This document shows, piece by piece, positions 2,339-28,125 of a stretch of DNA of 64,000 bases; position 1 is the first letter of the stretch; each line of letters starts with the position of its first letter. Both the position numbers and the translations under genes were made by a program. The notes beneath the pieces were generated by a model. It was not told where the DNA came from. It saw nothing but the letters and a program-made list of their open reading frames with translations, and did not search any database. The DNA comes from Bacteroidota bacterium (lineage in GTDB: Bacteria; Bacteroidota; Bacteroidia; B-17B0; Aurantibacillaceae), in contig JACPOC010000011.1 in NCBI GenBank assembly GCA_016185125.1, positions 1-64,000 on the forward strand. Direction: 5' to 3'.

Positions 2339-2462
2339 TGCATAAGTTAAGGTTTGCGGTTGAAAAACTACATTAAAACTAAAAAAACAGAGCTTTAACT
2401 TTAAAATAACCATCGGCACAAATTAGCCGGATTAAATACGTAATCAATAAATAAAATATAAA

Positions 2463-3524
2463 ATGGCAAGAAAAAACGGTGAAGATGTAATGGAACAAAC
2501 GGATTCCAAAAAGTCGTCAGTTAATACTGAAAAACTAAAAGCACTTCAATTAACCCTTGATAAGTTGGAAAAAACTTATGGCAAGGGAACTATCATGAAA
2601 CTTGGCGATAAAAAAGTGGAGCCAATGGAAGCTATTTCTACGGGTTCACTTGGTTTGGATATTGCCTTGGGTATTGGCGGATTGCCAAAAGGCCGTATTG
2701 TTGAAATATACGGGCCCGAATCTTCCGGTAAAACAACATTAGCCATTCATGCTATTGCAAGCGTTCAAAAAAGCGGGGGTATTGCCGCTTTTATTGATGC
2801 CGAACATGCTTTTGATCGTTTTTATGCTGAAAAATTAGGTGTGGATACCGAGAGTTTATTAATCTCTCAACCTGATAATGGTGAGCAGGCATTGGAAATT
2901 GCTGAAAATCTTATCCGTAGCGGAGCTATTGATTTGGTGGTAATAGATTCGGTTGCCGCATTAACGCCGAAAGCGGAAATAGAGGGCGAAATGGGCGATA
3001 GCCGCATGGGTTTACAGGCACGTTTAATGAGCCAGGCCTTGCGTAAACTTACCGGAACTATCAGTAAAACAGGATGTTGCTGTATTTTTATTAATCAATT
3101 ACGTGAAAAAATTGGCATTATGTTCGGTAATCCGGAAACTACTACCGGAGGAAACGCTTTAAAGTTCTATGCTTCCGTTCGTTTGGATATCAGAAGAATC
3201 AGTCAGCTAAAAGACGGAGATGTTGTAAGCGGAAACCGCGCCCGTGTAAAGGTTATCAAAAATAAAGTAGCGCCTCCTTTCAGGCAAGCTGAATTTGATA
3301 TCATCTTCGGGGAAGGTATCAGTAAAGTAGGAGAAATAATTGATATTGGGGTTGAAAAAGGAATTATCAAAAAAGCCGGTTCGTGGTTTAGTTACGACGA
3401 AACAAAATTAGGCCAAGGCCGCGATGCTGTTAAGGCTTTGTTTTCAGAAAACCCAGACCTTGCCGAAGAAATTGAAAATAAAATTAAAGAGGTACTTGCT
3501 GCCGAAGCCGCTCCTGCTGAATAA
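2463..3524 (+). CDS. recA: Recombinase RecA
   Basis: RecA forms filaments on single-stranded DNA, drives strand exchange and, in SOS systems, acts as a co-protease. The 353 residues are full family length. Walker A GPESSGKT lies at about 84-91, the Walker B strand [10 protein letters not shown] near 160, the loop L1 region [21 protein letters not shown] follows, and [21 protein letters not shown] covers L2 and flanks. The N-terminal ~25 residues are polar and variable, as usual. The gene is single, with a long leader holding a putative control box (2291-2320) and a strong terminator 250 bases downstream. Confidence 0.98.
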
Positions 3525-27573: not shown

Positions 27574-27692
27574 TCGCTTGAAACCGGTTTTTACTTTATG
27601 GAGAAAAAAAAATACCAGGTTTCAGGGTGTAAAATATGTCCCAACTAAATTTAGAAAAACTTTAAAAGCAACACCCCCGCCGAAAAAGGCAG

Positions 27693-27776
27693 GAACTGAG
27701 ATCAAAAGTTTAGGAAACTTCTATTCTATCCCTGCCCGACTGAACGGCGTTCGGGCGGGCATTGAACTACGGTGCC
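27693..27776 (-). pseudogene. Relic 5' copy of tRNA-Arg(CCT) with insertion
   Basis: On the minus strand this stretch repeats positions 1-55 of the tRNA-Arg at 28054-28125 with no mismatch, but a 29-nt insert (27732-27760) splits the D-loop. The copy stops in the T-loop after CTCAGTTC, where it joins an unrelated GC-rich hairpin-like sequence (27675-27692). Without the 3' half it cannot be a working tRNA. Its first ten bases (GGCACCGTAG) supply the last codons and the stop of the GIY-YIG ORF. Confidence 0.88.
27733..27761. repeat. GC-rich palindromic mini-element in the tRNA relic
   Basis: TGCCCG and CGGGCA form the outer stem and TGAAC/GTTCG the inner stem around a GGC loop. It is far richer in G+C than its surroundings and interrupts the D-loop of the relic tRNA. 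No second copy was noticed in this window. It has the look of a short interspersed palindromic repeat. Confidence 0.65.
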
Positions 27777-28012
27777 AACTTCAATCTTAAAAAACGTCTG
27801 CCCGCAGAACTCTTAAAATATTTCTCTCTTGCAATGGCTTCTTCCAACAGCGTGAATTTTTCAAAATAAACTACTTTAAACGGTATACGATTTTTAATAG
27901 ATTTTGTCATTCCCGAATTATGCTGCAGCAACCTTTTTTCAAGATCTTCACAATGCCCCTTGTAATAATATCCAGGTTCTTTTATGCTTTGTAAAACATA
28001 TGAATAATACAT
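27767..28012 (-). CDS. Small GIY-YIG endonuclease-domain protein
   Basis: 81 residues from the ATG at 28012, the usual start of this family (MYYSYVLQS). The single GIY-YIG domain is complete: YSYVLQ as first strand, YYYKGH as the YIG strand, the catalytic Arg in LEKRLLQHNSG, and the metal-binding Glu in EEAIAREKYFKS. Family knowledge: these stand-alone domains (UPF0213-like) are widespread in Bacteroidetes and their cellular role is unclear, while relatives include homing endonucleases. The gene begins 41 bases downstream of an intact tRNA-Arg, and its last two codons plus stop are made of the 5' end of the tRNA relic. It thus fills the space between two copies of the same tRNA start, as expected for a mobile unit. 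Confidence 0.9.
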   Translation of the reverse strand: MYYSYVLQSIKEPGYYYKGHCEDLEKRLLQHNSGMTKSIKNRIPFKVVYFEKFTLLEEAIAREKYFKSSAGRRFLRLKLAP

Positions 28013-28053
28013 TGTCTTTTCTAATAACAAGCCCTTGCTTTACAAAAGCTATG

Positions 28054-28125
28054 TGGCTCCGCTCAGAATCGAACTGAGATCAAAAGTTTAGGAAACTTCT
28101 ATTCTATCCATTGAACTACGGTGCC
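28054..28125 (-). tRNA. tRNA-Arg(CCT), with an acceptor mismatch
   Basis: A 72-nt cloverleaf: acceptor GGCACCG/CGGAGCC, D-arm GTTC/GAAT, anticodon stem GAAGT/ACTTT with loop TTCCTAA (anticodon CCT, reads AGG), T-stem CTCAG/CTGAG with loop TTCGATT. The CCA is not encoded. Pair 4-69 is A opposite A, while all other acceptor pairs fit. The first 55 nt are repeated at 27693-27776. It is probably functional but the 3' part deserves checking. Confidence 0.9.

Follow-up and report, generated by a model that had tools for sequence, protein, structure and literature searches.

The closest known system to the arrangement described here is SegB of the T-even phages. SegB is a free-standing GIY-YIG homing endonuclease of the phage T4/T6 tRNA region, where it is co-localised with many tRNA isotypes, and segB together with tRNA genes has undergone tandem amplification through homology of the segB 3′ end to the 5′ region of the tRNA (PMC13096335). 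In T4, segB sits between tRNA-Arg and tRNA-Ile (PMC2988022). Fungal mitochondria contain mobile ORFs that carry a replacement gene end, as described for atp6 of Allomyces and for atp6, atp9, cox2 and nad3 of Glomus (PMC3630166). Among stand-alone GIY-YIG proteins, one account places the structures 1ywl and 1zg2 in the Slx1 family, describes the Slx1-cluster family as vertically inherited with a predicted role in repair, and attributes to the Slx1 lineage an action on branched DNA (PMC1564403). Our search of the open literature, with subscription journals mostly outside its reach, returned no account of chromosomal GIY-YIG genes in bacteria that are accompanied by tRNA copies broken by palindromes. 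Here, we analyse such a locus together with its relatives and find that it looks like an undescribed mobile element living off essential tRNA genes.

The tRNA-Arg(CCT) locus

The window analysed here, 64,000 nt of a contig from a Bacteroidota bacterium (JACPOC010000011.1, positions 1-64,000), carries the locus on its minus strand. An initial annotation had read there, in this order, a tRNA-Arg(CCT) gene, a GIY-YIG gene and a further copy of the tRNA, and ARAGORN, Rfam and PF01541 bear this order out. The intact tRNA-Arg(CCT) (28053-28125; ARAGORN; Rfam RF00005, 62.1 bits) is followed, after a spacer of 40 nt (28013-28052), by the gene for an 81-aa nuclease with a minimal domain of the Slx1/UPF0213 type (27767-28012; PF01541, E 2e-10). 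The repeat does start at the tRNA 5′ end, with nt 1 at 27776, and the ORF does terminate within it: the gene ends ..TTG GCA CCG TAG, and its stop codon is formed by nt 8-10 of the tRNA copy. In the genus, the tRNA-Arg(CCT) locus holds one intact CCT tRNA in each of 38 genomes.

The copy had been described as a perfect repeat of 55 nt. Nucleotides 1-55 are indeed free of mismatches, but they are not continuous, being split in the D-loop by a palindrome. An exact copy of tRNA nt 1-17 (27760-27776) is separated from an exact copy of nt 17-55 (27693-27731) by a GC-rich palindromic insert of 28 nt (27732-27759; CCCGCCCG...GTCGGGCAG, in full CCCGCCCGAACGCCGTTCAGTCGGGCAG), the break, 17|17, lying between nt 17 and nt 17/18. 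At 39 nt, the exact repeat is longer than any other repeat in the 5 kb examined. Inserts homologous to this one occupy the same tRNA position in five other loci (L008, L009, L010, L011 and L013), and in one of them, L013 of genome G010, the interrupted tRNA copy is complete (nt 1-73).

Directly after nt 55 of the window copy stands a hairpin remnant (CCTGCCTTTTTCGGCGGG; 27674-27692, CCTGCCTTTTTCGGCGGGG, -10.8 kcal/mol), and the last 18 tRNA nucleotides, nt 56-73, are gone. The copy thus stops in the T-loop, as had been noted, but its end gives no evidence of a cut at that point. In L011 (genome G023) and L249, a palindrome is located exactly at nt 55|56 and the tRNA resumes behind it (nt 56-73); because these relatives hold an intact palindrome plus the tRNA remainder there, the T-loop end of the window copy is another palindrome insertion site, behind which the tail has been lost. 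The T-loop cleavage that had been assigned to the nuclease at the window locus is therefore not borne out.

The GIY-YIG gene is the sole gene between the two tRNA copies, and neither a tyrosine or serine recombinase nor an integrase was found at the window locus. Rfam gives the tRNA alone there, with no group I intron RNA, and PADLOC returned no match to a known defence gene. The window palindrome is present in a single copy in its own genome, even with up to 3 mismatches allowed, which rules it out as a repeated element of that genome. As a separate observation, pair 4 in the acceptor stem of the window tRNA-Arg(CCT) is an A:A mismatch (GGCACCG/CGGAGCC), and 16 of the 38 genus genomes are mismatched at this pair; the mismatch might be the scar of a chimeric tRNA.

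Linkage of small GIY-YIG genes to tRNA genes

A census of the genus with the window protein as query, in which all but a few matches were fetched and scored, recovered 103 GIY-YIG genes in 40 genomes. Forty-seven of these lie no more than 400 bp from a tRNA or tmRNA gene, all 47 on the same strand as that gene, and further genes, some of them at contig ends, are accompanied by tRNA fragments only. For the ParE toxin family, a control of similar gene size drawn from the same genomes, a tRNA within 1.5 kb was found in none of 30 loci. An internal control is provided by a well-supported clade of 38 ordinary GIY genes, including both other small GIY genes of the window genome, of which 35 are tRNA-free; thus, tRNA association is a trait of particular protein lineages. 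The lack of an excess of GIY-YIG genes near tRNAs had been named in advance as grounds for abandoning the idea of a tRNA-bound unit; the excess is overwhelming.

In a phylum-wide sample, relatives are present in 256 of 395 Bacteroidota genomes, often in tandem arrays of constant period, and 26 of the 29 top loci of this sample are tRNA-adjacent. Of 80 named loci from the GTDB contig collection, 79 adjoin a tRNA on the same strand. Both fractions are biased upward because the queries were built from tRNA-linked members, a bias from which the genus census is free. Furthermore, the wide alignment A1 had no sufficiently conserved stretch for scanning a collection and the narrower alignment A2 took its place, so that the resulting sample is skewed to Arg-type units. 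Some of the named loci carry the labels Stahlbacteria, WOR-3, Omnitrophota, Parcubacteria, Colwellbacteria and Chlorobiota, with contamination of metagenome-assembled genomes possible for odd-phylum records. The arrangement is general: it recurs at numerous tRNA genes in Bacteroidota and in a small number of other phyla. Genes for tmRNA also adjoin such nucleases (L028 and L204).

Given that the window comes from a draft assembly of 59 contigs, an assembly artefact or a chance repeat could be suspected. The same structure, however, is present in genomes assembled almost completely into one or two contigs (G001 and G002) and in dozens of independent species, and we regard the chance that the arrangement is spurious as negligible.

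Broken tRNA copies and palindromes

Hereafter, T denotes the intact tRNA, T′ a broken copy of the same tRNA, and GIY the nuclease gene. The unit consists of an Slx1-type GIY-YIG gene and tRNA sequence, placed between one intact T and at least one broken T′. A survey of GIY-YIG genes near tRNAs, which the initial annotation had proposed, returned partial tRNA repeats on the same strand in 101 of 117 tRNA-linked loci, as well as unit-free sites in sister species (see below); an opposite-strand copy was found in 2 of the 117. In the great majority of the loci, GIY lies between T and T′. Where T is downstream (71 loci), 67 have the order T′-GIY-T; where it is upstream (46 loci), 27 have T-GIY-T′. 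Units measure about 320-450 bp and encode proteins of 80-90 aa, and tandem arrays are common.

The layouts differ, with T first or last and T′ entire or split, and the window is among the loci with an entire or one-sided T′. Pieces of T′ flank the unit on both sides in 14 loci. A tRNA-Leu(GAG) in L286 is divided into exactly adjoining halves (nt 3-46 and 47-87) by an intact tRNA plus GIY; L249 and L280 each have a tRNA-Arg interrupted at the anticodon loop by GIY plus an intact tRNA.

The breaks in T′ fall in the D-loop (nt 17 or 21-23), the anticodon loop (around nt 33-40) and the T-loop (around nt 55-59), the dominant break points being 21|22 and 22|23. These recurrent sites are filled by palindromes, a feature that had been overlooked at first: after 79 of the 185 breaks, a perfect stem that is GC-rich and 7 bp or longer follows within 5 nt, the frequency at random positions being 0.6%. 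The commonest filler, CCTGCCTGCCGGCAGGCAGG, is flanked by ..GGATA and GAGC.. in species belonging to different phyla; the filler in the clade of the window is CCCGCCCG...CGGGCGGG.

These break points bear on site-specific integration of the integrase kind, in which the tRNA repeats would be attL and attR and the GIY-YIG protein the recombinase. Direct tRNA repeats flanking the gene and the retention of an intact tRNA agree with such a scheme. However, the ends of the repeats differ among loci and coincide with palindrome sites, GIY-YIG enzymes are hydrolytic nucleases, the locus has no integrase gene, and we know of no circular form of the unit. Integration of this type is thus highly improbable, and in place of the tRNA-integration logic with att-like repeats put forward initially, duplication through homology, by homing or recombination, is the likelier process.

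Some palindromes also occur away from tRNAs. Palindrome CCTGCCTGCCGGCAGGCAGG is dispersed off tRNAs in 26 of 395 Bacteroidota genomes (L304-L330), all of which have a relative of GIY, and is therefore not private to the unit. Palindromes of the CCTGCCTGCC.. type both adjoin the gene and lie dispersed in some genomes, the window's palindrome not being among these, and genome G029, which has a unit of the window type, contains 12 dispersed CCCGCCCG...CGGGCGGG palindromes (contigs C4, C6, C25, C29, C40, C45, C48 and C49).

Such dispersal invites a reading akin to the REP/RAYT system, in which the GIY-YIG enzyme mobilises GC palindromes and the tRNA copies are favoured hairpin-loop landing sites. 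Indeed, the palindromes lie exactly at tRNA loops, one of 20 nt recurs across phyla and off tRNAs, a GIY match is present in 26 of the 26 genomes bearing it compared to 256 of all 395, the dispersed palindromes of G029 belong to the type of its unit, and the Slx1 lineage acts on branched DNA (PMC1564403). The intact tRNA, moreover, usually keeps the presumed site, which, with the palindromes elsewhere in some genomes, leaves room for such an enzyme. Yet palindrome copy numbers are low (1-12), most genomes with GIY lack the 20-nt palindrome, the window's own is single-copy, and palindrome families differ while the tRNA-GIY-tRNA layout persists; palindrome mobilisation also leaves the tRNA duplication itself unexplained. 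We therefore rate this reading as unlikely, although it retains some weight.

Several repeat structures were recorded alongside. Tandem tRNA-Val-like copies with a period of roughly 87-89 nt lie near GIY-YIG genes in L119, L136, L158 and L033, a TCCCGAC..GTCGGGA hairpin taking the place of the anticodon arm. In L077 (genome G001), some 100-400 nt downstream of tRNA-Arg(CCT), there are three tandem repeats and no GIY gene, each repeat combining nt 60-73 of the tRNA with a long CGGCGGG palindrome. L250 has two tandem units (2429-3032) whose 5′ tRNA copies are one base apart (GGCTCCG and GGCCCCG), a difference that possibly records successive insertions.

The nuclease

The window protein retains the catalytic Tyr, Tyr, Arg and Glu of the PF01541 domain (E 2e-10), and Y5, Y17, G19, R27 and E63 are invariant among 26 relatives (alignment A1). 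Profile matches in the PDB are confined to 1ywl, 1zg2 and SLX1, which places the protein closer to the Slx1 cluster than to UvrC or I-TevI. The DNA-binding tail of classical homing enzymes is absent from the protein, and the lineage is of the repair type (Slx1/UPF0213). Where synonymous change is unsaturated, dN/dS is about 0.05-0.3; the protein is thus kept by purifying selection.

Carriage of the unit as phage or plasmid cargo was considered and ruled out: a search of phage and plasmid collections with the related L025 protein gave no match. One weak viral contig was matched. The window protein falls in no PHROGs family; the sole PHROGs match came from L264 (phrog_314, E 1.6e-7).

Presence, absence and decay of the unit

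The distribution of the unit is patchy. Among the Arg(CCT) loci compared in 38 genomes, 8 have the unit or a remnant of it. Relative to G003 and G031, genome G013 has 571 bp extra between the conserved upstream gene and the tRNA, corresponding to the unit plus the copy, and G010 has the unit where G012 is without it. Decayed sites are seen as well: G032 contains the deleted remains of the unit that is intact in G023 and, with a decayed unit in place, is ruled out as a clean both-sided empty site for G023. The initial proposal of a mobile element that exploits the tRNA gene and has a GIY-YIG enzyme but lacks an integrase is thus supported by sites without the unit, in addition to the tRNA excess and the partial repeats.

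The G023 locus combines two divergent tRNA lineages. Its T′ has, over nt 24-55, 0 of 32 mismatches to the tRNA of G003, G009 and G010 and 12 of 32 to the adjoining intact tRNA; for a second T′ stretch, the corresponding values are 0 of 18 and 8 of 18. Because this T′ matches the tRNA of other genomes and not its neighbour, one of the two must have been imported. Elsewhere, T′ is mostly of the host type, being exact over nt 1-20 in 35 of 56 cases and, in 53 of 56, nearer to the T beside it than to the median for other species; local duplication or gene conversion would account for this pattern no less well than import. The intact T usually keeps the presumed cut sequence, and T is clearly unlike T′ in few loci (G023/G032).

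Nuclease clades match tRNA type. In the genus, separate clades go with Arg-CCT, Arg-TCT, Arg-CCG, Val, Met, Ser and Asp, and across phyla the clades form Leu and Arg groups; changes of tRNA label on the gene tree are far fewer than in shuffles.

Another view is that the unit serves the host or is neutral, with tRNAs duplicating readily by recombination, the nuclease kept for tRNA dosage, as with SegB, or for DNA repair only, and the copies and palindromes arising as decay products. The nearly uniform host type of T′ accords with it, as do the tandem and tRNA-like arrays (L119 and L136), and SegB-driven tRNA amplification is documented in phage (PMC13096335). Against it, the breaks in the copies fall at fixed points in the loops and carry palindromes, hardly any extra copy is intact, the unit is patchily distributed (8 of 38 Arg-CCT loci) and occurs in distant phyla, and the clades follow tRNA type. 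We give such an explanation a low probability.

Discussion

We propose, at a probability of roughly 60%, that the unit is a very small free-standing selfish element of the homing type, for which the tRNA gene would serve as both target and homology and which keeps one intact tRNA. Several observations weigh against it: the intact T usually retains the sequence that should be cut, T′ is mostly of the host type, palindromes also occur off tRNAs, the layouts vary, and the protein has no DNA-binding tail of the classical kind. In the proposed cycle, the nuclease would break a unit-free tRNA gene in a loop, the D or anticodon loop being the likeliest. The break could then undergo recombinational repair from a unit-bearing chromosome or DNA fragment, with the flanking tRNA repeats as homology. 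The nuclease gene would thereby be copied in, and one complete tRNA would be rebuilt or supplied, allowing the host to survive. Given that two tRNA copies flank the unit, one whole tRNA could be either rebuilt or carried in, so that the host lives. The palindrome in T′ interrupts the presumed site and would protect the broken copy, and tandem arrays would arise when the tRNA is cut again or when T and T′ recombine unequally.

A more far-reaching version of the homing scheme is that the unit is a natural home-and-rescue element, whose nuclease breaks an essential, often single-copy tRNA gene and brings a full replacement on which the gainers then depend. The clearest cases are L286, L249 and G023/G032, where the nuclease gene and an intact tRNA, divergent in G023, together split a broken tRNA. 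We advance this version tentatively and consider it rather doubtful.

If the homing reading is true, the numerous small GIY-YIG genes to which Bacteroidota annotations assign housekeeping or repair roles include a mobile element that is among the smallest known, lives on essential tRNA genes of many isotypes and crosses phyla. It would be a cellular counterpart of phage SegB and a possible natural precedent for nuclease-plus-rescue drives. It would also generate tRNA pseudogene fragments as well as tandem arrays and offer a direct test of palindrome entry into tRNA loops.

Each of the known systems shares some of these features. tRNA group I introns have the same kind of target, anticodon-loop breaks and a nuclease as cargo; here, by contrast, the locus has no intron RNA, nothing is spliced, and an intact tRNA lies alongside. 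As in REP/RAYT, the gene of a small DNA-cutting enzyme stands beside palindromes that also lie dispersed, but RAYT is a Y1 tyrosine transposase (TnpA_REP), whereas the enzyme here is a PF01541 GIY-YIG protein tied to tRNA genes. With the Slx1/UPF0213 proteins (1ywl and 1zg2), the window protein shares the minimal stand-alone GIY-YIG domain and the catalytic residues, the difference being that no tRNA linkage was found for that family in the account consulted (PMC1564403). The fungal mobile ORFs likewise combine an endonuclease ORF in an essential gene with a restoring gene part, the displaced native part remaining; those, however, are mostly LAGLIDADG ORFs in mitochondrial protein genes that replace the C-terminal part, whereas the units described here occupy bacterial tRNA genes, often include a whole intact tRNA, and have palindromes in the broken copy. 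SegB differs in being phage-borne, and neither palindrome-interrupted copies nor a pair of broken and intact tRNAs are described for it; unlike SegB, the window-type protein is of 80-90 aa, chromosomal and with an Slx1-type domain, and by profile the window protein falls outside the phage family. Nevertheless, the end of the window nuclease gene overlaps the tRNA 5′ region, which is the same kind of homology as that between segB and its tRNA.
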